In this document: positions 1,910 to 20,891 of the stretch, piece after piece
How the letters are laid out: the number at the start of each line of letters is the position of its first letter
How positions within the stretch are numbered: the stretch's first letter is position 1
Virus record (IMG/VR): IMGVR_UViG_3300006921_000183
Location: 1 to 22,120 of that record
Direction: 5' to 3' (one strand)
Origin: a virus
DNA: 22,120 nucleotides
Notes under the pieces: generated by a model
What the model saw: only the letters and a program-made list of their open reading frames with translations
The model's database searches: none
What the model was told of the DNA's origin: nothing
Made by a program: the position numbers and the translations under genes

Positions 1910-2191
1910 TCATTCTTCTTCATCTCTCAACTTATGCTCGCAAGCAGGGCAGTGAATAGGTAAAGCAATATCTTCAAGAAGAGGTGTGTTTATTTTGAAA
2001 CCACATTCCGAACATTCTTCCTTGTGAAGCAATCCTTGTGCTTCAAGCATCCGAACCATAACCATGTTCAACTTGTCGCATTCTGCGAATACAACTCTCA
2101 ACATTTGGTTTTGTTGCTCAAGTGTGGTAGTCATTTCTGCAAGTAGTGTTTGCATCTGTTTAACTGTGGGCTTTTTTGTCTCTCTCGCCAT
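1910..2191 (-). CDS. Coiled-coil protein with C-terminal zinc ribbon, 93 aa
   Basis: Residues 1-55 are helical and heptad-like (KQMQTLLAEMTTTLEQQNQMLRVV), probably a coiled coil that drives self-association. Residues 58-90 hold two CxxC pairs (CSECGF and CPACEH), a zinc ribbon. The ATG at 2191 has GGTGAG just before it and a TATA box (2224-2215) 23 bases upstream, so this gene is transcribed on its own directly after polB. A DNA-binding or regulatory role fits the fold but is not shown. Specific family not recognised. Confidence 0.75.
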   Translation of the reverse strand: MARETKKPTVKQMQTLLAEMTTTLEQQNQMLRVVFAECDKLNMVMVRMLEAQGLLHKEECSECGFKINTPLLEDIALPIHCPACEHKLRDEEE

Positions 2192-2228: not shown

Positions 2229-4454
2229 TCATATCCAACTACCACTTAAACCATTGAGGGCATTTTCAAGTGAAACAATATCCCACCCCATAACCTCATA
2301 GTATGGTTGAACCTTGTCGAAAACAAATCTCTGCGCTATATGCTTGAAACCTATCTGCGCAATACCTTCGACTTCGTTTGGGTCATCGAAGGCGATATAT
2401 TCTCCTTTGTTGTTCAAAGTCGTTAAGAAGTAATCATCCTTACGATAACCCTTGCCTAAATGTGTGTTCGCCCACTGCGCACCGGCTCTTGCTTCGCCTA
2501 AGACGCTGTATTCGCTTAGATTTTTGTTCAACTTTGCTTTGATGCAAAGGTCACGCACCGGAATGTCACCGGAAATTATTCTGCGCACTAAATCTTCAAT
2601 CTCTTGAGTAATCTCAACCTCATCTCTTTCATTTAGTATTCCGTGTATAGTTGATTGCAAAGCAGACTTTAGCGCATTGGGTAATCGACCTTGTTTCATT
2701 TCAATACCCTTAACATATATTTGAGGGTCATGTGGTTCGCCGTCAGTCCATGATACGCTCGCCGCATAACGGTTCTTAGCCATGATTAGGAATGTGTCAC
2801 ACCACTTCTCGAACTCTGTTTCAATCGGACTCATGCGCTCATTGATTATGCGCAGAACATCTAAACCATGTTCGGAACTTTTTATATCGCACATAATCGA
2901 ATCGGTGTGACCGTAGCGTACTGTGCAACCTAACTCATTCGCAATATCACGCAGTCTGAACAGTGTTTGTCTTGATGTGAAGGTGATAGCAGAAGCAATA
3001 TCGGGGTGATAGAAACCACACTTTGAGTCACCTGCTACTCCGTACATCGAAGCGACGAGGGATTTTGTTGCGTACTGTAATGCGTCATACATTTTGCGCT
3101 TCTTTTCAGTCGGCGCAGACTTCATCAATTCCTTGTATCGGTTGCGCAAAACAGTCATTTTATCCATCTGTCTGCCGAGTAAACCATTCTTTTGCGCAAA
3201 CTTAACTCCATTCCCGCAATCATTCCCGTCGTCATCGAGGGTAGTCCAACAAATATTATGCAGTTTAATATTACTGTGATACATTGCCTTAATATCCATG
3301 ATTCCTATGTTCCTATGGACTCCTGCATCAACCTTCATAATATCTGCGCCTGTGTAATCCACCTTTTCAAATTGAGCCTTGCTCGGTATCTGTTCTTTGA
3401 ACTCTTCATCACGCAGAGCGAGAATAGGGAAAACCTTCGTCACATAGGGAGTAGTGCGTATATCGCACTGCGCAATATGTTGAACGGCGGTGAAATAATC
3501 TAATGCGCCGACCAAATCATTCAATCTCGGTAAAAGGCGTACATCTTGTCGTGCGTAGTCGAGGTATGTGCCAATGTCTGTAAAATAGGTGTCATGTCCG
3601 TCTTTCAAATCAACCTTAGTCTCTTTCAAGCAGTATGTTGATACTGCGCCTAATCCCATCGCAGGCAGTTGTCCGTTCTTCAAAGTCCATAACTTCTTAA
3701 AAGCAATCATCAAGTCTATGGTGTTGTAGCCTGCGATTGGCTGCGCCCACTCTCCGAAGTCATAACGCACCTTGCGCATAGGAGATAATGTGCGAATCTC
3801 AAGACCGTTTGCCTTGAACCGCTTGAATAACTGCTGGCAGTCCGCATTGACTACATTCCAACCAGTGAGAATATCGGGGTCGCATTTGCGCATAAGTCGA
3901 GCAAAGTCTTGCAGTAATTCCTTCTCATTGTTGAAACACTTGAACCGTCGTTCACCACTTACGCAATCTTTCATACCTTCGGGGTGTTCTTTGCAGGGAA
4001 TCGAGTCATAGAATCCTGCCTTGTAGTCGGGATGAGTAAATAGTACATACTCGCCATCCGTTGAGTCCTCGATGACGATAATTGTTATTTGGCCGGAGTC
4101 CATCATCCATTCCATATCAAAGAACCATGTTCGATGCTCATACATCGGGATATTGACTCGGTTTTCAACAAGAACCTTGTTCGTGTGCGCAATGTTCGCC
4201 TCCCATGTGCGAACCTTCTTTGAAACATTTCTCATATCATCTGTGCTTTCAAACATAACTCTCCGAAGTTTCTCTCCGTAAAGTCCTTCGTAATTCTCAT
4301 CGGGGAGAACCGTAAACGGTGGTTTCAAATTCCCAATATCGCCCGACTCAATATAGCAGAATGGGTTTGCAGAAACAGTCCTCTGTTTCCTATTGCCGTC
4401 TGCATCCCTATATCGGATTAAGACGCTATTCTTCTTCGTTCTCTCGATAATCAA
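2229..4454 (-). CDS. polB: Family B DNA polymerase, replicative
   Basis: The replicative polymerase, 741 aa, with 3'-5' proofreading. Exonuclease motifs: FDMEW at 112-116 (D113, E115), GWNVVNAD at 198-205, YARQD at 300-304. Polymerase motifs: A is DIKAMYHS at 387-394, B is KSLVASMYG at 464-472, C is YGHTDS at 514-519. The catalytic aspartates D387 and D518 are kept, but A has YHS for YPS, B lacks the usual asparagine, and C has H for the first D of DTD. The C-terminal end (GLSGSWI) resembles a weak clamp-binding peptide. The start is TTG 4454, overlapping the methyltransferase-remnant stop as TTGA; the next methionines lie too far inside the N-terminal domain. Last gene of the run that begins with the clamp. 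Confidence 0.96.
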   Translation of the reverse strand: MIIERTKKNSVLIRYRDADGNRKQRTVSANPFCYIESGDIGNLKPPFTVLPDENYEGLYGEKLRRVMFESTDDMRNVSKKVRTWEANIAHTNKVLVENRVNIPMYEHRTWFFDMEWMMDSGQITIIVIEDSTDGEYVLFTHPDYKAGFYDSIPCKEHPEGMKDCVSGERRFKCFNNEKELLQDFARLMRKCDPDILTGWNVVNADCQQLFKRFKANGLEIRTLSPMRKVRYDFGEWAQPIAGYNTIDLMIAFKKLWTLKNGQLPAMGLGAVSTYCLKETKVDLKDGHDTYFTDIGTYLDYARQDVRLLPRLNDLVGALDYFTAVQHIAQCDIRTTPYVTKVFPILALRDEEFKEQIPSKAQFEKVDYTGADIMKVDAGVHRNIGIMDIKAMYHSNIKLHNICWTTLDDDGNDCGNGVKFAQKNGLLGRQMDKMTVLRNRYKELMKSAPTEKKRKMYDALQYATKSLVASMYGVAGDSKCGFYHPDIASAITFTSRQTLFRLRDIANELGCTVRYGHTDSIMCDIKSSEHGLDVLRIINERMSPIETEFEKWCDTFLIMAKNRYAASVSWTDGEPHDPQIYVKGIEMKQGRLPNALKSALQSTIHGILNERDEVEITQEIEDLVRRIISGDIPVRDLCIKAKLNKNLSEYSVLGEARAGAQWANTHLGKGYRKDDYFLTTLNNKGEYIAFDDPNEVEGIAQIGFKHIAQRFVFDKVQPYYEVMGWDIVSLENALNGLSGSWI

Positions 4455-4720
4455 AACAAAGCAACCCTTTCTTCAACCCTTTCTTTATGTTGTTTAACTT
4501 CTTTTGAAATATGAGATAATCGCTTCTGCGCAATCTCAAAGTATTCAGAATCTCTTTCCACCCCTATAAATGAAAAGTCTTGCGTCAACGCCGCTATGCC
4601 TGTCGTGCCACTACCCATGAAGGATAACCCGTATGGCGGGTCGGTGACGATTGAATCAACAGAATTACTTTCCATGTCTTTCAAAGCATCTAAACAATCT
4701 GCGAGTATAATTTTCTTCAA
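4451..4720 (-). pseudogene. DNA methyltransferase remnant with internal deletion (89 aa)
   Basis: Beta-class N6-adenine/N4-cytosine methyltransferases have the order: catalytic DPPY, target-recognition region, then SAM-binding FxGxG. Here the N-terminal strand and DPPYG (27-31, TDPPYGLSFMG) run straight into SGTTGIAALTQDFSFIGVE (SAM motif, normally DPFMGSGTTG). Both flanks normally contain an FMG tripeptide (DPPYGLxFMGKxW and DPFMGSGTTG), so the two halves are joined at FMG 34-36, as expected from recombination at a short repeat. Family members are usually over 200 aa. The reading frame is intact, with a TTG start preceded by GGAGG at 8 bases and a TTGA overlap upstream, so it may still be translated. 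It could bind SAM but lacks a target-recognition region. An assembly collapse is an alternative. Confidence 0.75.
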
Positions 4721-5489: not shown

Positions 5490-5855
5490 TTATTTAACTC
5501 TCCTGTATTGGTAATTTTTATACGGGGTGAATATCCTCTCGATATAACCCCATCTTTCTATTAACTTTAGTATGTGACCGACACCGGAGGGATGAAGTGA
5601 GTTTTGAGGAATCATAATCTCATTCACCCTCTCGGTTATTTGGCCGCCGCTTAGTATTTGTCCTGTTTCCATGTGAAACAAAACGACTCCCATAACTGCG
5701 ACCTTTCGGTGTATTTTGTGCAGCGACATAACATTTCCCATATGCGATAACACTTCTTCGACCTGCTCTTGCGTAAACTTCTCAAAAGTCCTACTGCGCA
5801 GAGTCCTTGCGAAATTAGTGTTATCTCTCATGTGTTGGGAAATGTCAATAGGCAT
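5490..5855 (-). CDS. Winged-helix protein, 121 aa
   Basis: The second half reads like a winged helix: a helix with VMGVVLFHMETGQI, then GGQITERVNEIMIPQNSLHPSGVGHILKLIERWGYIERI (recognition helix), then a basic wing (FTPYKNYQYRRVK). Likely a DNA-binding or transcription regulator. ATG 5855 overlaps the clamp-like gene by 11 bases and has GGGAGG 12 bases upstream. A TTG at 5867, directly abutting that GGGAGG, is less likely. It follows the clamp gene in the same run. I cannot name a family. Confidence 0.72.
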   Translation of the reverse strand: MPIDISQHMRDNTNFARTLRSRTFEKFTQEQVEEVLSHMGNVMSLHKIHRKVAVMGVVLFHMETGQILSGGQITERVNEIMIPQNSLHPSGVGHILKLIERWGYIERIFTPYKNYQYRRVK

Positions 5856-6681
5856 CGGGCTTCGCAACCTCCCGTTGAAATATGACTGTTTCGTTTAGTC
5901 CTCCTTGATTGATTAGTAATGAAATACCTCCGCCTAAAGAAGTTAAGTCGAAGAATTGTAATTTTACTGCGCCAGTCATAGTGCGCAGAACATTTTCAAG
6001 ACTCCCACCGACAACTGTTGAGAACTCATGTTCGCAAGTTTCAAGAAGAGACTTAGTGCGCCCTTTGATTTCTGCGCCTGCGCTTAACAATAACAAGCCG
6101 TCTTCTGTGAAGAACTTGTATTGAGATACCTTTTGACCGTTCATAGAACCGCTATCCATTGCGTCAAGCAAGTCTGAAACAGACACTACGACTTCTGCGC
6201 AAGGTTCGACAGTATCGCCAGTGGATGCTGTGTATTTCCCTTCGTTTTTTATTATTGCGGCATTGAAACGCTCAAAACTCTCTTTAGACCATTCGTTCAC
6301 GGTCTTTTTGGTGTGTGTAAAAGCCTTTGCATCCCTGCTACTGATTAGAGTTGTTTGTTTTCCAGCAGAAACAATTTTTATTTTGCCATCATCTTGAGTC
6401 AAACGCACTGCGCTCTTGTGTTTCGATAGTGCGCCAAGCATCAAGGATATGTTCGCAACTACAATGCTCGCAGGTTCGCTATTCTCGCATTCCGCAGTGA
6501 ACAGAGAGATACTTGTTATGCCATCCCGAACAATGTTGCAGGTTTGCGCAAAGCCCTTATCTGCGTATATTGTTGTTCCCTCAACCTGCGGAATATTTTT
6601 TCCGTTGATTGTTGCATTTCTCTGCGTGCGCTTGAGAAGTGCTTGTAATTCTTTAGTCTCGATTGTCAATGTTTCCGACAT
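5845..6681 (-). CDS. Sliding-clamp-like (PCNA-like) processivity factor, 278 aa
   Basis: Probably the ring that tethers the polymerase to DNA. Identification is tentative because the sequence is divergent. Supporting signs: length of about 280 aa; alternating beta strands such as ASIVVANISLMLGALSKHKSAVRLTQDDGKIKIVSAG, which resembles the PCNA stretch of a short helix followed by two strands; a second similar unit near the C-terminus (SLENVLRTMTGAVKLQFFDL followed by GGGISLLI); first gene of the polB run; and a clamp loader plus clamp-binding peptides elsewhere in the window. ATG 6681 has GAGGG 7 bases upstream and a TATA box 23 bases upstream; the frame extends to 6726 but those codons overlap the promoter. 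A structure-based comparison would decide. Confidence 0.6.
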   Translation of the reverse strand: MSETLTIETKELQALLKRTQRNATINGKNIPQVEGTTIYADKGFAQTCNIVRDGITSISLFTAECENSEPASIVVANISLMLGALSKHKSAVRLTQDDGKIKIVSAGKQTTLISSRDAKAFTHTKKTVNEWSKESFERFNAAIIKNEGKYTASTGDTVEPCAEVVVSVSDLLDAMDSGSMNGQKVSQYKFFTEDGLLLLSAGAEIKGRTKSLLETCEHEFSTVVGGSLENVLRTMTGAVKLQFFDLTSLGGGISLLINQGGLNETVIFQREVAKPDAY

Positions 6682-6962: not shown

Positions 6963-7925
6963 TTAACCCCATGCCAAGAAAGGTAATCCAGTCCATGTGA
7001 CTTCGCCACCTTTGACGCTTAAGACAGTGTGCGTTGAACCTAAATGCTCTTGGTTGAAACCTTTCATTTCTTCGATTGACGCTCTAATCTCCCACGCACC
7101 TTCTGCAAGGTTCTTATCTGCCTTAACACCTGCGGCGAGGTCGCCCTTCTTAGTGTATCGGGTCATCCATAACTGCTGCGCAAATAGGCGCATAGTACCC
7201 TTTTCCCATTCGGGTTCTTCGCCAATCTTCATCAATCCCTTTTGGCCGTTGCCAACATCTGCGAATTGCTTCTTATCTTTCAAGTGAAATGTGAAAAATA
7301 CTGCGTCAACAGGCAATTGATGCGCACGATTAGCAATATCACGGAACAATTTGTTTCGTATGCGCCATTCGGCTTGATTAAACTTGTCGCCGTCTTCGAC
7401 ATTGACAGGATTCTTTGAACGGTTCATTAGAACATCGGTCATTGCAAACTCGCACCACTTCAAGAATGACGACATTCCATCCATAATTACTGCGCCCACT
7501 TCGCCATCCCTGCACTTCTGCGCAACAATGTTAATGAAGTGACCCATTTTATCAACAAGAGCCGTGTAATTGGTTGAATTGTCTTCGTTAAAAATCGTAT
7601 CATCCAACTCATCATAGAGAGGGATAACGAGGATATTCTCATCGTCGGGATAATTTGCTGAAACAGTTTGCATTGCGCTATTGTCAACATCGAAGATGAT
7701 GATTTGCTTATCTGCGCCGATGTGTTGACGAGCAAGAGAAACGGCAGTGCCAGTCTTAGCGGTATTTTCTTTACCGACAAGTGCCATGCGCACTGTTTGA
7801 GTACGAGAACGCTTCTGCGCAAACAATTCCTCATAATGCGCTTTCATATCACGCATTGGAGGCTTGTCTGCCTGCGATTCTTTCTTACTTGCACCTTTCT
7901 TTGCGTTAGCCCATGCGTTTGCCAT
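6963..7925 (-). CDS. RecA-fold P-loop ATPase, RadA/Sak4-like
   Basis: A 320-aa ATPase probably acting in recombination or strand annealing. The P-loop is unusual: GKENTAKT at 51-58, where A replaces the second glycine of GxxxxGKT. The next strand carries IIIFDVDNS (73-83). Walker B is AVIMDG (145-150, D149) followed by SSF. Later strands include AVFFTFHLKDKKQF, like the sensor and L1/L2 region of RecA-like proteins such as phage Sak4. The charged N-terminus (1-40) is likely disordered. It is encoded 6 bases after the single-strand-binding candidate with GGTGAT as ribosome site, a pairing typical of Sak4-type modules. RadA itself is less likely because the N-terminal HhH domain is absent. Confidence 0.72.
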   Translation of the reverse strand: MANAWANAKKGASKKESQADKPPMRDMKAHYEELFAQKRSRTQTVRMALVGKENTAKTGTAVSLARQHIGADKQIIIFDVDNSAMQTVSANYPDDENILVIPLYDELDDTIFNEDNSTNYTALVDKMGHFINIVAQKCRDGEVGAVIMDGMSSFLKWCEFAMTDVLMNRSKNPVNVEDGDKFNQAEWRIRNKLFRDIANRAHQLPVDAVFFTFHLKDKKQFADVGNGQKGLMKIGEEPEWEKGTMRLFAQQLWMTRYTKKGDLAAGVKADKNLAEGAWEIRASIEEMKGFNQEHLGSTHTVLSVKGGEVTWTGLPFLAWG

Positions 7926-7931
7926 TCAAAA

Positions 7932-9176
7932 TCACCATCCCATAGAGTCTTCGACCGCTTCTTCGGATTCTTCTGCGTCGTCTTCTGCGCCGAGTCCTTC
8001 GACGGAGTCCATGACCCACCAACCGGAAACGCTCATACGAGGCATTCCGTCGTCTTTACCAATCCAACCGCCACCGCAGGCAATAACAATAGAGCCGACT
8101 GCGAAATCAACCTTTGATTCTTCTTCTTTAGAAACCCATAGGTCAATCGGAGGAATAGGTGAAGTAATGTCAAGGTCTGCGAGAGTAATGATGTAGCCAC
8201 CTTTCTCTCTTGGGTCGATGTGCGCAACCTCAAGAGGCATTGCGCAGAGAGCATCCCACTTTTCTTTATCAGATAGTGAACCCAACCAACCTTCAAGGTC
8301 TGCAAGACCAGTTAGCGGAGTGACATTTGCAAGGTCTTTCAGAAGACCGTTGCCTTCTTCATCGAAAGGCGCACTATCGAACATCGAAACCAATGTGTCA
8401 TCTGCGCTAAAAAGAGAAACCTGCGACTTAGTGTAGCCCACATCACCGTTTCGACCCAACTTGACCGGCAATCGACCAGTGACAAATGTTGGGTGGATAG
8501 CCAGTGCGTCATCACCGTTGAATCGAACCTTGATAGGTCTAATTGTCTTATTGTCCGCACTGTTGCCTAAGAATACGCAGTCACGCATCGGTTCGCTTTG
8601 CGCTCGGTATCGGCCATAGCGGTAATTCGGACTGCCCGAAGGCCATGAGGGAGAAGATTTGTCGGCAATCAAAACAAAGTAGCCTGTACCGTCGTTAATA
8701 TCCTTCGCCGCCTTTGGTAGTTCAGTCACATGCTTTTCAGCAGAGGAAATGTCGAATGATTGTTTTCCTTCAAGAGAAGGGTTGTGGATATAGCGATAAC
8801 CGCCGTTCACATCATCATTCAAGAATAGTGCGCAGACACCTTGAGAGACAAGTAGTGTGCGTGCATCTTCGTCAAGCCCCATGAGGTTTGTCTTCATGTT
8901 CTCATATTGGCGTGCCGCAATATCCTTTGTGCGTGGCACACTGATAAACATACCTTCAATGTTCTCGCAACCACTTCGGGCGAGTCTTGCAGAGACTACT
9001 CTTAGTTCTGCGGAGGCCATTCTTAGGGTCTTCATCTGTATGTCTTCTTCGGATAAACCATTCGCTTGAAGGTTTGCTTTGTTCGCATTCAAGACGCTCT
9101 CATGCTTTGCAAGCAGAGCCTCTGTTGTGCATCCGACATTTTTTGCTACTCTTTCTATAATTTTTTCATCAACCAT
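7932..9176 (-). CDS. Putative RPA-like single-stranded DNA-binding protein, 414 aa
   Basis: A helical N-terminus (1-70) is followed by long beta-rich regions. These include PIKVRFNGDDALAI, and near residues 350-395 PPIDLWVSKEEESKVDFAVGSIVIACGG then PRMSVSGWWVMDSV, which look like OB-fold strands. The C-terminal tail is strongly acidic (GAEDDAEESEEAVEDSMGW) and ends in an aromatic residue, as SSB tails do when they recruit partners. It is paired with a RecA-like ATPase and next to the clamp loader. ATG 9176 was chosen: an upstream frame to 9302 overlaps the clamp-loader gene and the TATA box, while AGGA lies 12 bases before this ATG. OB folds are hard to see by eye, hence moderate confidence in function. 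Confidence 0.6.
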   Translation of the reverse strand: MVDEKIIERVAKNVGCTTEALLAKHESVLNANKANLQANGLSEEDIQMKTLRMASAELRVVSARLARSGCENIEGMFISVPRTKDIAARQYENMKTNLMGLDEDARTLLVSQGVCALFLNDDVNGGYRYIHNPSLEGKQSFDISSAEKHVTELPKAAKDINDGTGYFVLIADKSSPSWPSGSPNYRYGRYRAQSEPMRDCVFLGNSADNKTIRPIKVRFNGDDALAIHPTFVTGRLPVKLGRNGDVGYTKSQVSLFSADDTLVSMFDSAPFDEEGNGLLKDLANVTPLTGLADLEGWLGSLSDKEKWDALCAMPLEVAHIDPREKGGYIITLADLDITSPIPPIDLWVSKEEESKVDFAVGSIVIACGGGWIGKDDGMPRMSVSGWWVMDSVEGLGAEDDAEESEEAVEDSMGW

Positions 9177-9219
9177 GTTCTTCACTTTTCCTGTGTATTC
9201 TGTCCTATACCTGCTGCTC

Positions 9220-9229
9220 ATATAAACCC
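9220..9229 (-). promoter_or_regulatory. TATA box, GGGTTTATAT, for SSB/RecA-like run
   Basis: Same ten bases as the boxes at 2224 and 6714, here 43 bases before ATG 9176. This predicts a short leader of roughly 17-20 bases that contains AGGAAAAG, unlike the leaderless promoters. It sits directly after the clamp-loader stop (9237-9235). Confidence 0.65.
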
Positions 9230-9234
9230 CCCGA

Positions 9235-10131
9235 TTAAATCGAGAGCATCCTCGCAAAATCCCATCGAACAACGCTTTCATCAACACCCATGACAATATC
9301 ACGCTCGCTGATTATTGCGCATTCAACGACCTTTGCAATCATTTTTGCATCGGCTGGACTGTTTGTTGCGTAGTCGAAAACTCTGCGCACTACGCTACGC
9401 ATATTCATGTTGCTACTCAACTTTACTGCGTCTGAAACAGACTTCTCGGTTGTAGCAAGGCGCAGATAACGGCGAGCATCAAAACCTTCCCCCATTTCGA
9501 GAAGGAATTTTTTTCCTTCTTCATCGGAGAGATAGCATAGTGTTTGCAATGCGCCTATTGTGTTGCGTAAATCACCTTCATGTATTCTTGCGAGATTTGT
9601 AATATCGTCGTCTTCGACTGTCATTGATTCCGACTTGAGAATATCACGCATTGTTTTCAACGCACTATCAACAGTATGTGCTTTGAAATGTCGAACCGAG
9701 CAACGGCTCTGCAACCAACGGGATATTTTGCTAAGGTCGTTGCAAGTCAAAATGAAGTAGCAAGAAGAACCTTCGATAACTCCCTTTAGTGCGCTTTGCG
9801 CCGCAAGAGTCAACTGGTCTGCTTCATCGAGAAGAATAATGACTTCACCTAAACCACTTTGCGCAAGAGGGATTAACTCATCTTCAATGAACTCAATACC
9901 TCTTGTTCTCTTAGATGACGCATTGTAGTGGTGGATTTGATAGCCAAGACTCTGCGCAAGAATATACGCAAGTGTGGTTTTACCCGTTCCCGCTTCGGGG
10001 GAACTAAAAATGTAATGTTGCATAGGTTGTCTTTTGTCAATGATATTCTCGAACTCCGGTATCAAATGACTCTGTCCGACGAACTGGCGCAGAACCATTG
10101 GTCTGTGTTTTTCCCACCAAATACTACTCAT
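9235..10131 (-). CDS. rfcS: Clamp loader small subunit (RFC small)
   Basis: AAA+ ATPase that opens the sliding clamp on primed DNA, 298 aa. N-terminal WWEKHRPMVLRQFVGQ is the RFC box (W-x-E-K-Y-R-P-x-x-L-x-x-x-x-G). Walker A is SPEAGTGKTT (44-53), Walker B VIILLDEADQ (97-106), sensor 1 TCN (129-131), and QSRC (141-144) carries the RFC-type arginine finger. The C-terminal helical part (LRNTIGALQTL etc.) follows. Starts at ATG 10131 in a TGATG junction, with GGAGAGGG 6 bases upstream. No large RFC subunit is visible here; the virus may use a homomeric loader, the host's large subunit, or another protein such as the clamp-binding one at 12014-12673. Confidence 0.95.
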   Translation of the reverse strand: MSSIWWEKHRPMVLRQFVGQSHLIPEFENIIDKRQPMQHYIFSSPEAGTGKTTLAYILAQSLGYQIHHYNASSKRTRGIEFIEDELIPLAQSGLGEVIILLDEADQLTLAAQSALKGVIEGSSCYFILTCNDLSKISRWLQSRCSVRHFKAHTVDSALKTMRDILKSESMTVEDDDITNLARIHEGDLRNTIGALQTLCYLSDEEGKKFLLEMGEGFDARRYLRLATTEKSVSDAVKLSSNMNMRSVVRRVFDYATNSPADAKMIAKVVECAIISERDIVMGVDESVVRWDFARMLSI

Positions 10132-10570: not shown

Positions 10571-11172
10571 GCATATTCCTCCAACATTTCTTCAACGAAA
10601 GGGCGTAATGCTTTGAACATACCCTTCGGTGAAAGTCCGGCAGTATCGAGCGTTAAGACCTTGTGCGGATTACCCAACTCTCCTTGCGACGGTGTACGCA
10701 TAGCGGTTTCAGAATAGTGCGCAAGTCTTTCGGGATTAGCACCTCTCTCAATCAGTGTGCTTTCGGGCGCACGCAGTCGGATAAGCATACCATGTCTAAT
10801 GCAGAAGTCTGCCTCGTTGTGATGGCGCACATCGTCTATGATAGCGACTGATGTTTCACCTTGACGGTTGATGGAGTCTTGCACCCTATCAACCCAATAG
10901 TCTTCATCAACCATTTGTCGCTTTGCTTGACCCAATGCTTGTAGCAGTGGGCGCACTGATTCTTTATGCGCCGCTTCTTTCACTTCAAGTAAGAACCTTG
11001 CTTCGGCAGAACCCTTGTGAGTCCAAATGACCTCCGACACTTCTTGGCGAACTGCTTCTGCAAACGAGAAAGTCATTGTTGTATGTGTGCGTGAGAGATA
11101 TGTTTCGAGAATTTGTGCGAGGGTGGATTTACCAGTGCGCATACGACCTGCGATTCCTATAATGAATGTCAT
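10567..11172 (-). CDS. Deoxynucleoside monophosphate kinase, phage type
   Basis: Phosphorylates dNMPs to dNDPs, raising nucleotide supply for viral replication. The 201-aa sequence begins with a P-loop, GIAGRMRTGKST (6-17), then FSFAEAVRQEV (the FAxxLK-like dNMP-site segment of phage dNMP kinases), RPLLQALGQAKRQMVDEDYWVDRV (the conserved R-xx-LQ-x-xG-x-x-x-R then D-x-x-xW motif) and VAIIDDVRHHNEADFC (the D-V-R-F-x-N-E-like motif). This combination is characteristic of phage T4 gp1-like kinases. ATG 11172 is preceded by GGAGG at 7 bases and overlaps the upstream stop as ATGA. Confidence 0.88.
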   Translation of the reverse strand: MTFIIGIAGRMRTGKSTLAQILETYLSRTHTTMTFSFAEAVRQEVSEVIWTHKGSAEARFLLEVKEAAHKESVRPLLQALGQAKRQMVDEDYWVDRVQDSINRQGETSVAIIDDVRHHNEADFCIRHGMLIRLRAPESTLIERGANPERLAHYSETAMRTPSQGELGNPHKVLTLDTAGLSPKGMFKALRPFVEEMLEEYA

Positions 11173-11372
11173 AGCCAGCCCTCCTTTGATACCTTGTTGT
11201 TGAGTTTAGAGGCTTCTTTGAAAGGGAAGCAGTTTGGACATTTGTTCAAAGCCATAGCCTGCGCATCGGTGAGATTTGGGTTATGTTCGACAGTCTCACC
11301 ACATGCGTATGTTGGATTCGATGTGTCGTAGTCGTCACACGACTTATGCAATAGGCTTTTCTGTTTCCCCAT
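11169..11372 (-). CDS. Small cysteine-rich zinc-binding protein, 67 aa
   Basis: Four cysteines are spaced for metal binding: C12, C24, and CPNC at 45-48 (histidines at 9 and 29). The region between (TSNPTYACGETVEHNPNLTDAQAMALNKCPNC) suggests a small zinc finger. ATG 11372 lies 23 bases from a TATA-like TTTAATA with no ribosome site, so it is probably the leaderless first gene of the run dNMP kinase to clamp loader. Its 3' end carries the GGAGG used by the kinase. Family not recognised. Confidence 0.72.
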   Translation of the reverse strand: MGKQKSLLHKSCDDYDTSNPTYACGETVEHNPNLTDAQAMALNKCPNCFPFKEASKLNNKVSKEGWL

Positions 11373-11837: not shown

Positions 11838-12017
11838 CTAATCGCCCATCGTTTGCCACATTGCCATGTTCGCAGAAGCAGGCATCTCACCCGACTCTCC
11901 ACTTTGCTCAACACCCATCCCTCTTCTGCGCATACGGTAAGGTAGTCTCACGAAATTAACCCATGAGAGAGTGAACCAAACGACGAAAACTAAAAAAAAG
12001 AACTGTCCTTCGGTCAT
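11838..12017 (-). CDS. Small membrane protein, 59 aa
   Basis: A short N-terminal MTEGQ precedes a hydrophobic stretch, FFFLVFVVWFTLSWVNFV (about residues 6-23), which is one predicted transmembrane helix. Then come a basic segment LPYRMRRRG and a polar tail. The positive charges after the helix suggest the C-terminus stays in the cytoplasm. ATG 12017 is chosen because it overlaps the upstream stop as ATGA; a GTG at 12023 is possible. It is last in the helicase run. A membrane-acting role (holin-like or superinfection) is only speculation. Confidence 0.7.
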   Translation of the reverse strand: MTEGQFFFLVFVVWFTLSWVNFVRLPYRMRRRGMGVEQSGESGEMPASANMAMWQTMGD

Positions 12018-12673
12018 ATCCACCCATCCAGTGTTGGTTGCTCACGCTTCGGTAATCCTTTAGGTAATGACCTTTTCTCTGTTCTGCGCAAAACATTCGC
12101 AACCTCTTTATCTAATCGAACAATACTCTCCCAATGCTTATCACTTTCACGGATTCCGAGAGGGTATTCTAAAACACCATCCGACTTCTTTTTCTTAGGC
12201 CATGCCATTCTGCGCACAGGTTTATGTGAGAAGTTTATTAGTGCTTGTTGAAAGTCTTCGGGAACATTGGTAAATGCCTTAGCCAGTGTACGCCAAAGTG
12301 TAATATCCTTGTTGTTTTCCCGCAAGAATGACAGCATCAGAGGAACGGGAACATTTGCGCATTCTGGAAATGACTTTGTTCTATTTGACCAACGCATAGT
12401 TGCGTCTATATTGCGTGTGTAGTCTTGCTTTTTGAAAACGCCGTCAATAATTATAGAATCGTTCTTTTTCATCTTCGGTGGTTTCTCGCAGACCCAAACC
12501 ATTCTGTATGCAATGTGCGGCAACCATGCAACACATTCTTTTTCTGTCGGGTATCTCTTATGCACTATGACTGTCAAACCATCGACTTGAGGGTCGCTTG
12601 AAACATAACCGCCTTCGACATAGTCTCCGGTTCGGTATTTCTGCGCATCATGCGTGAAAATGAGAACGCCCAT
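12014..12673 (-). CDS. Clamp-interacting protein with C-terminal PIP box, 219 aa
   Basis: The last residues, KREQPTLDGWI, fit the PCNA-interacting peptide Q-x-x-hydrophobic-x-x-aromatic-aliphatic almost perfectly, comparable to tails of archaeal FEN1 or RFC large subunit (QxTLxxWF). The protein should therefore bind the clamp, either the viral 5845-6681 product or the host's. The body begins MGVLIFTHDAQKY and contains strands, a motif VWVCEKPPKMKKNDSIIIDG and a helical C-terminal half (PVPLMLSFLRENNKDITLWRTLAKAF). I do not recognise the enzyme family. A clamp-loader-like delta/RFC-large substitute is possible from the C-terminal half but unproven. ATG 12673 overlaps the winged-helix gene by 26 bases; a longer frame would overlap it by 131. 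Confidence 0.72.
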   Translation of the reverse strand: MGVLIFTHDAQKYRTGDYVEGGYVSSDPQVDGLTVIVHKRYPTEKECVAWLPHIAYRMVWVCEKPPKMKKNDSIIIDGVFKKQDYTRNIDATMRWSNRTKSFPECANVPVPLMLSFLRENNKDITLWRTLAKAFTNVPEDFQQALINFSHKPVRRMAWPKKKKSDGVLEYPLGIRESDKHWESIVRLDKEVANVLRRTEKRSLPKGLPKREQPTLDGWI

Positions 12674-12911
12674 CCCAAACACCTGCTCGTCTGTATTCCT
12701 TGACACCGCCCTTCTTGCGGCCTTCAAGTGCGCCTTTACCTTCAAGTATGCGCAGAGCCTTTGCCACTGCATAGACATTCATGTGCATGTGCGATTGAGG
12801 CAGTGCGTCTATTGCTCTTGGTAATAACGCATCTGCGCTGAACCAGTCTGCACTGCCCTCCCATCCTTCAACTGCTCTCTCAACTGCGAATTTTCGATAT
12901 TGCTTGCTCAT
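12648..12911 (-). CDS. Winged-helix protein, 87 aa
   Basis: Residues 25-80 (ALLPRAIDALPQSHMHMNVYAVAKALRILEGKGALEGRKKGGVKEYRR) form a helix, a recognition-like helix and a glycine-rich basic wing, a standard winged helix. The arrangement is similar in style to the proteins at 14646-14951 and 14948-15217. Starts in an ATGA junction with the small zinc protein upstream. Likely a DNA-binding regulator; target unknown. Confidence 0.7.
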   Translation of the reverse strand: MSKQYRKFAVERAVEGWEGSADWFSADALLPRAIDALPQSHMHMNVYAVAKALRILEGKGALEGRKKGGVKEYRRAGVWDGRSHFHA

Positions 12912-20135: not shown

Positions 20136-20891
20136 TCACCAGTTTAAACCTCTTGTCGGGTCGTCGTCAAAGTCGGGGTCGTCGGGGTCTAAACCGTATT
20201 CGTTATTGACTTCATTAACAACATCTTGAACTATTTTTGCTCTCTCTTCTGCGCTTATGTCTTGGGGTAATGAGAACTCTTCTGCTCGTATTCCTCCCAT
20301 GCTTTTCATGTGTTCATCGACAATACTCCCCCATCCAGTCGGTAGTAAAGGTGTGCAAAGGAATGCGGCCTTTTGTCCATTACCCAAATTCCACGCCGTA
20401 GGCATTTGTTCTGCGCAAATTGGGTGCATAGAATGCAGTTTAGCGATAGTATCAAAAATAAATGCCTTTCTGCGTAATTCCTTTGTTTCCTTTGTTTCTT
20501 CTGCGAGCATATGGATGCTTCGGCTCATAAATGCTTCGTCGTGGTATGTGCGTACATACTCAAGCCAATCATCCGATTTCATCGCACTGTTGGTTTCGCT
20601 GAATAGCGCATGGCAGTATGCGTGTGTTGTAATGTAAATGCTCATCTCTGTGCAAGCCTCCCAAATATCAGCATCGGATTCTTCAAAGAACTTTTCGGCT
20701 TCTATAAGGCGCATCTGCGCAAACTGCGCCATTCTATCGCTTAACTTATCGAATGCGCTTGTGTTGTCTGCCTTCAAAAATCCTAAATCGGGGTTAAGGT
20801 TCAAACCTGCTCTGTAAAATGCGCCATACAAGAACTGCGCCGCATCCGTGATACTCTCGACTGGTCTTGCCAGTTTGAAGTCTTCGCTCAT
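20136..20891 (-). CDS. Hypothetical helical protein with acidic tail, 251 aa
   Basis: Predominantly helical (KLSDRMAQFAQMRLIEAEKFFEESDADIWEACTEMSIYIT). A mid-region WNLGNGQKAAFLCTPLLPTGWGSI could be a loop of functional importance. The C-terminal tail is very acidic (DPDDPDFDDDPTRGLNW) and ends in tryptophan, as does the putative SSB. No family recognised. Starts in an ATGA junction and ends immediately before the next promoter, so it is the last gene of the rightmost run. Confidence 0.72.
   Translation of the reverse strand: MSEDFKLARPVESITDAAQFLYGAFYRAGLNLNPDLGFLKADNTSAFDKLSDRMAQFAQMRLIEAEKFFEESDADIWEACTEMSIYITTHAYCHALFSETNSAMKSDDWLEYVRTYHDEAFMSRSIHMLAEETKETKELRRKAFIFDTIAKLHSMHPICAEQMPTAWNLGNGQKAAFLCTPLLPTGWGSIVDEHMKSMGGIRAEEFSLPQDISAEERAKIVQDVVNEVNNEYGLDPDDPDFDDDPTRGLNW

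Follow-up and report, generated by a model that had tools for sequence, protein, structure and literature searches.

A candidate ATPase-less clamp-loader subunit with a tryptophan-ended C-terminal tail in marine viruses with archaeal-type replication genes

The 219-aa protein described here probably fills the A position of an archaeal-type viral clamp loader as a non-ATPase subunit resembling gp62, and it has a short C-terminal tail that would dock on the sliding clamp. It is encoded on a 22,120-base record of a marine virus (the window, meaning the whole stretch of DNA that was analysed), and 'archaeal-type' refers here to the replication genes (RFC, PolB, PCNA-fold clamp and ERCC4 nuclease). 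If the assignment is true, a gap would be filled, as these genomes have an RFC-type ATPase and a clamp while an A subunit had not been recognised in them, and an archaeal-type replisome would be shown to use an A subunit without ATPase in the manner of T4. This would be relevant to whether the T4 arrangement is peculiar to phages or has recurred among viruses as a means of shrinking the loader. The end of the tail was also found on other proteins of the virus group and, if it has the proposed role, would provide a simple, testable rule for recognising clamp clients among unnamed genes.

Gene, relatives and neighbouring replication genes

The gene and the neighbours referred to below were placed as follows.

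12014..12673, minus strand: candidate non-ATPase clamp-loader A subunit, 219 aa (translation, relatives, model and fold comparison)
11169..11372, minus strand: small Cys-rich protein, ending in ..SKEGWL (end in 11/12 members)
9235..10128, minus strand: RFC-small-type AAA+ ATPase, the predicted partner (SRC motif, Walker B; PHROG clamp loader, E 9.4e-40)
7932..9221, minus strand: 429-aa protein with an acidic tail and a final W (or WE/WD) in 17/17 members (tail conservation)
6963..7925, minus strand: RecA-like ATPase, so named from its sequence, with a gene flanked by those for the SSB-like protein and the clamp (conserved position)
5845..6681, minus strand: sliding clamp of PCNA fold, the predicted docking site of the tails (AF2 model and fold matches)
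2229..4454, minus strand: family B DNA polymerase (PolB), ending in ..GLSGSWI (family match; end in 13/14 members)

Translation of 12014-12673 on the minus strand gave 219 aa with the C-terminal end KREQPTLDGWI. The longest ORF over the gene starts at 12778. A start at MG(V/I/M) is possible in nearly all relatives (one uses GTG, and one locus is truncated), and in L017-L023 the frame is closed by a stop within a few codons upstream of this start; on the common start and this stop, the 12014-12673 frame was accepted and the longer ORF was not taken as the gene. By iterated scanning, copies or relatives of the protein were located at 38 viral loci, at identities from 100% down to 36%. No tblastn match was obtained in 50,697 phage records, and no relative was found in 84,980 prokaryote genomes by a peptide-pattern scan (35 pattern hits) that would miss distant relatives without those peptides. 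The open-access literature gave no account of the protein among the matches listed, and it is not described in the excerpted text of PMC10160649, PMC12153180 and PMC8893722 or in two ICTV profiles. The record of one relative (G001) contained a portal match over the Pfam cut-off and a terminase match just below it, so the group is likely to consist of tailed viruses.

The P-loop variant of the RFC-type protein, PEAGTGKT, was read from the sequence, being missed by the strict regular expression. One RFC-like AAA match at E <1e-11 was present in each of 12 relatives' records, and a second, weaker AAA match in 8 of the 12 (E 5e-8 to 0.01, in frames of 236 to 873 aa), over the Pfam cut-off in three cases. 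The weaker match in G001, the one examined of the eight, was rejected as a large RFC subunit and is AAA_5/Mg-chelatase-like instead. No recognised A subunit was met in these 12 records, which may be fragments.

The order target-RFC-clamp-PolB was kept in all 38 loci as far as each extends, with RFC present in 35, the clamp in 32 and PolB in 24 (a count that includes cut genes; complete ORFs alone number 11). Loci without RFC, clamp or PolB end within 10 kb of the target, and on the record of L031 PolB lies further on. In each of the 35 loci that reach RFC, the 219-aa gene is upstream of it. Between target and PolB, where found, lie genes for the small Cys-rich protein, a dNMP kinase and the SSB-like and RecA-like proteins. 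The small Cys-rich protein had no Pfam match; the product of 7932..9221 had no family match of note, and calling it SSB-like is a guess from its tail; the product of 6963..7925 had weak family matches and none stronger. For the window PolB, the best listed matches in the phage collection were haloviruses and cyanophages, at 21-24% identity.

Archaeal and T4 loaders contain one A subunit and four identical ATPase subunits (PMC3331839, in excerpt). A virus with an RFC-small protein and a clamp would otherwise borrow the A subunit of its host, which makes the 219-aa gene the natural candidate. The question may extend to the Aoguangviridae, since the excerpted family profile describes a marine archaeal virus with an RFC small subunit, PCNA and a clamp loader and names no large RFC subunit.

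The clamp was modelled with AF2 at pLDDT 90 and pTM 0.88. Foldseek returned 389 hits at E<=0.001, of which the best 50 listed were all clamps or clamp complexes, and 1isq, titled as the P. furiosus RFC-L PIP peptide on PCNA, was among the hits. Superposition on Haloferax volcanii PCNA gave Z 19.2 and 3.0 Å over 218 residues. By sequence, 5845-6681 had no profile match, and a search for PCNA_N in 5 records gave one match below the cut-off (E 0.0045), so the identity of the clamp rests on its fold.

Fold of the body

The 219-aa protein and 17 family members were searched against Pfam and PHROGs and gave scattered chance matches in single members and no loader family. Its profile against PDB sequences gave a chance capsid match alone (E 0.39), hhalign found no homology to 10 gp62 proteins (probability 0.1%) and was negative against the RFC-L of halovirus HCTV-5, and there was no AAA match in the protein or its family members. 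A P-loop is absent, as 0/21 relatives have G....GK[ST] or any GK[ST]. With sequence homology not found, the loader-subunit identity is held at moderate confidence and the protein is not filed as a member of the gp62 family.

The model of the protein was moderate (pLDDT 69, pTM 0.52), with residues 1-27 and 217-219 below 50. A Foldseek search of the PDB with this model gave no hit at E<=0.001; the best rows were unrelated (a tRNA deaminase, E 0.91), and a T4 loader chain stood at rank 29 with E 6.5. In a VIA comparison with 261 chains, in which chain and domain identities were read from titles, lengths and residue numbers, the seven best rows were CTF18 (twice), MgsA, a related AAA+ C-terminal fragment, 8uk9_A, Rad24 and an RFC chain. 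These rows covered residues 80-161 at Z 6.1-4.6 with an rmsd of 2.7-3.4 over 70-80 residues, and the row after them was unrelated (Z 3.9). The T4 clamp-loader chain 8uk9_A, judged by its length of 182 to be gp62, matched the moderate model (pLDDT 69) at Z 5.5 and 2.7 Å over 70 residues. Four of the seven (CTF18 twice, gp62 and Rad24) are A-position subunits, and from the residue numbers we take the matched stretches to be collar domains. In a viral-model library the top row was a sequence homologue (A0A516L798, 33% identity, E 1.9e-13), and phage proteins named 'clamp loader subunit' occupied ranks 2, 3, 9 and 18 of the best 50 at E 0.3-2.2. The VIA and viral-library signs are each weak and agree with one another, and with moderate confidence they point to a collar domain in the middle of the protein.

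12194..12430, minus strand: predicted clamp-loader collar domain, residues 82-160 (seven best VIA rows)
12200..12202, minus strand: W158, candidate counterpart of gp62 Trp111 (end of the VIA alignment and conservation)

The VIA alignment to T4 gp62 ends at model residue 159 and gp62 residue 111, so that W158 falls within one residue of its end, and the pairing of W158 with Trp111 is good to about one residue. The W158 position is aromatic in 21/21 relatives, with P159 and K161 invariant; among gp62 proteins, W occurs at 111 in 8/10 and K at 113 in 10/10. Residues 1-81 gave VIA rows to deaminases, RPB5-type RNA polymerase chains and NucS (2vld, Z 3.2), and a deaminase, RPB5-type or NucS identity for this region was set aside, all of these rows having Z <4.

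A VIA Z near 6 can reflect a common arrangement of helices and is not decisive, which leaves room for a clamp-associated protein of another kind (e.g. a nuclease, primase accessory or inhibitor) that is tethered by the tail and whose collar-like helices are coincidental. The unrelated best rows from Foldseek, the low confidence and weak unrelated folds of residues 1-81 and the missing sequence homology to any loader would all suit such a protein. Against it stand the seven best VIA rows, all from clamp loaders or MgsA, the gp62-type proteins brought by the viral library, the single strong RFC-type ATPase without a recognised A subunit in 12/12 records and the place of the gene upstream of RFC in all 35 loci that reach it. 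A non-loader of this kind is considered unlikely, and the A-subunit reading is preferred.

From the sequence of the window, the earlier note had described a body matching no recognised family, which was borne out by the Pfam, PHROG, PDB-profile and tblastn searches, and had called 5845-6681 clamp-like, which the fold supports as a PCNA-type clamp (pLDDT 90, Z 19.2). Among the possible identities, its suggestion of a second subunit of the clamp loader now has the best support, from fold rows, gene order and the missing P-loop, and lacks sequence homology; its alternative, a nuclease, found no support beyond the one weak NucS row.

The C-terminal tail and its distribution

12017..12040, minus strand: C-terminal tail QPTLDGWI, residues 212-219 (conservation among 21 relatives)

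The tail fits the PIP pattern QxxhxxAA, except that its final residue is I and not an aromatic. A strict form, Q-x-x-[LIM]-x-x-aromatic-hydrophobic, occurred 29 times in 185,366 aa, from which 0.006 occurrences at an exact C-terminus are expected among the 39 genes of the window; it was observed at that position in 5 of 918 ORFs of the virus group, all of them copies or relatives of the 12014-12673 gene, so the tail is beyond chance.

Conservation was examined in 21 representatives, which gave 19 distinct tails, two pairs being identical over nine residues. The canonical PIP pattern is not conserved across the family and was present in 4/19 distinct tails, namely in the window's branch and one other; the remaining tails were QKNEDGWL, QNEDGWL, KQKVIEWL, EKTHEWF and similar. 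W218 was invariant (21/21), followed by L, I or F as the last residue. Q212 was kept in 18/21 relatives and lost in 3/21, and the residues between Q212 and W218 vary in kind and number. As judged from the sequences, the conserved feature of the family is thus a short W-aliphatic/F end rather than a PIP box. Given that the canonical pattern appears in so few distinct tails, the PIP match could be a chance resemblance in a few branches and the tail could have no docking role; with W218 unchanged while its neighbours change and the spacing shifts, and with the same end recurring in four further families, of which three are DNA enzymes, this is very improbable.

The tail KREQPTLDGWI that the earlier note had read at the extreme C-terminus was confirmed by translation. 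Its descriptions 'near-perfect' and 'PIP box' hold for the window's product, its branch and one other branch, and fail for the family as a whole, which keeps the shorter end, the canonical box being absent in most relatives and W plus aliphatic/F being kept in all. The note had not drawn the link to the window PolB, which has the same W-aliphatic end (..LSGSWI).

The extreme C-termini of other proteins were counted in ORFs >=60 aa, picked greedily by length from all loci and grouped into families of >=4 members after collapse at 95% identity, smaller families being dropped. This gave 52 families with 478 members, and as the members are related to one another a Fisher value is no true probability here; the identities of the families were tested on one or two members each, plus BLAST. 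An extreme C-terminal W-[LIVMF] was present in 57 of 61 members of five families versus 1 of 417 in the other 47, and the five were the 219-aa protein (21/21), PolB (13/14), the small Cys-rich protein (11/12), an N6/N4-type DNA methyltransferase (9/10) and an ERCC4-HHH nuclease (3/4). Seven families have W in >=60% of members at position -2 and two have it at -1, whereas no family has it anywhere from -3 to -9. In four genomes that were scanned almost completely, at least 3 to 5 of 91-98 ORFs had the W-[LIVMF] end, counts that are lower bounds, as the small Cys-rich protein was in the list of one of the four; tails of the Cys-rich type are present, beyond these lists, in relatives at L003 and L008. 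In the most distant genome (G007) the bearers were PolB, the 219-aa protein, two N6/N4 methyltransferases and one methyltransferase match below the cut-off.

Three bearers in one genome (L048:10-783, L048:3663-4922 and L031:8459-9109) end in W plus L, V or F and comprise two N6/N4 DNA methyltransferases and one weak methyltransferase match; their sequences suggest clamp-coupled DNA methylation. One N6/N4-type DNA methyltransferase has 406-419 aa in L018/L041, L019 and L048. The window has an 89-aa ORF (4451-4720, minus strand) that matches only both ends of this enzyme, the middle having been lost, apparently in frame. The ERCC4-HHH (XPF-like) nuclease is encoded outside the window's stretch (L061:2967-3665, L065:3902-4603 and L067:4702-5400, ending in ..RKAWV, ..RKQWV and ..SKRWV); a fourth family member, L070:8129, is without the W-aliphatic end. 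By its tail the nuclease is likely a clamp client in the same viruses. A small protein is encoded at window 1910-2191 (minus strand), and its relatives in L037 and L045-L047 have QTTLPL or QTTLHD(I/V) directly followed by an acidic end; this resembles the first part of a PIP, lacks the aromatic and is absent from the window copy.

A second type of tail is closed by a W that is bare or acidic (..SMGW, ..VGDW, ..GLNW, ..FLAWG) and was seen in families represented in the window at 7932-9221, 1000-1854, 20136-20891 and 6963-7925 (minus strand). W stands in the last two places in 17/17 members of the SSB-like family, 7/9 of a PDDEXK nuclease, 5/6 of an unnamed family and 12/15 of the RecA-like family.

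The W-aliphatic tail, common to PolB, methyltransferases, a nuclease and the 219-aa protein and mostly departing from the canonical PIP, could be a tag for docking on some different hub, such as the SSB-like or RecA-like protein, and bring the same enzymes to forks by that route; the further replication proteins that end in a bare or acidic W fit such a scheme. Against it, the classic clients of clamps include PolB, the A subunit of the loader, XPF-type nuclease and DNA methyltransferase, and five ORFs of the 219-aa family keep the canonical PIP. In a curated set with three archaeal species, every PIP motif is at the very C-terminus (PMC6881253, in excerpt), although an N-terminal one has been proposed in the Thermococcales protein TIP (PMC4929162, in excerpt). 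Docking on another hub is thus rated quite unlikely, and docking of the tail on the clamp is preferred.

A cross-check was made in HCTV-5 (L059, L073, L074), which has a complete RFC-L and in which no PCNA_N match was found. An end of the form [VILMP]-L-x-[FWY] was present in 8/133 ORFs versus 1/918 in the marine set; the pattern is a description rather than a blind test, as it was written after the tails were known. Its bearers were RFC-L (..SQSVLDF), PolB (..GGVLSW), two DNA methyltransferases (..VLDF), an HNH nuclease (..VLDY), an acetyltransferase, a DUF6610 protein and one hypothetical protein. That the A subunit of this virus has its end in common with the polymerase and methyltransferases fits what clamp docking predicts. 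Among the ten proteins listed for HRTV-27 there was no such end.

A wider reading, to which we give slightly less than an even chance, is that in some tailed viruses whose replisomes are of archaeal type a lineage-specific C-terminal mini-code, distinct from the host PIP, addresses a set of enzymes to the viruses' own divergent clamp. It would take the form W-aliphatic-COOH in the window's group and V-L-D-F-COOH in HCTV-5, and the set would comprise the polymerase, the A subunit, several DNA methyltransferases, the XPF-type nuclease and the small Cys-rich protein. If true, the viral replisome would be insulated from host PCNA, and viral proteins of no known function could be assigned to the replisome by their last two to four residues.

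Proposed working and comparison with known loaders

In the proposed arrangement the clamp loader would be built from two viral genes, with a probable 4:1 stoichiometry. Four copies of the RFC-type ATPase (9235-10128) would fill positions B to E, and the 219-aa protein, lacking a P-loop, would take the A ('clasp') position, where its collar (residues about 82-160) would close the ring; its N-terminal domain would be a reduced one, and an extension would follow on the C-terminal side. W158, an aromatic followed by P-x-K near the end of the collar, may, like Trp111 of gp62, make contact with the template strand at the primer junction. The C-terminus, flexible and basic, would bring QPTLDGWI into the pocket in which the PCNA-fold clamp (5845-6681) receives its clients, much as archaeal RFC-L docks on PCNA with its C-terminal PIP. 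The tail might help to grip the clamp while the ring opens, or retain the loader beside loaded clamps until the same-ended PolB displaces it; with W-aliphatic-COOH also on PolB, the DNA methyltransferases and the ERCC4-type nuclease, these enzymes would compete for the clamp or share it.

T4 gp62 resembles the 219-aa protein in size (187 versus 219 aa), in being without an AAA+ ATPase, in having a collar domain followed by a C-terminal extension (predicted in the 219-aa protein), in having its gene in the neighbourhood of those for a single RFC-type ATPase, a clamp and a polymerase, and in an aromatic-x-K motif that ends the collar (W111-A-K in gp62, W-P-K in an Aeromonas phage and W158-P-K-K here). 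Unlike gp62, the 219-aa protein has a longer N-terminal region, archaeal-type partners and a W-aliphatic tail, and homology between the two is not detectable. According to the excerpted text of PMC8121543, gp62 has lost its AAA+ module and forms a clasp between the B and E subunits, Trp17 and Trp111 are its most mutation-sensitive residues, and Trp111 buttresses the first two unpaired template bases.

The likeness to archaeal RFC-L lies in the A-position role (candidate here) and in a C-terminal clamp-docking end (predicted here). RFC-L is an active ATPase (PMC3331839, in excerpt), unlike the 219-aa protein with its missing P-loop, and HCTV-5 RFC-L has 414 aa, so that the 219-aa protein is about half its size. 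By analogy, the protein would combine the working of gp62 with the C-terminal end of archaeal RFC-L, and it is assigned to neither family. Among the matches listed, no open-access paper reported a gp62-like subunit from an archaeal virus or described a shared tail of this kind.

The tail resembles the PIP box (QxxhxxAA) in its extreme C-terminal position and, in the window's branch, in its full spacing; it differs in that most relatives and the other tail bearers lack this Q and the usual spacing, and what stays constant is W-aliphatic/F-COOH. A short end at the C-terminus of a viral polymerase is also known from RB69/T4 gp43, in which a short hydrophobic C-terminal peptide binds the clamp pocket and basic residues meet its acidic groups (PMC3012046, in excerpt); docking of the PolB end on the clamp is a prediction here. 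T4 gp43 ends in LDFLFG, whereas the end described here is common to the candidate loader subunit and methyltransferases. Among 10 aligned T4-like gp62 proteins (L049-L058), five end in W (..LALEW, ..QILEW, ..IIERW).
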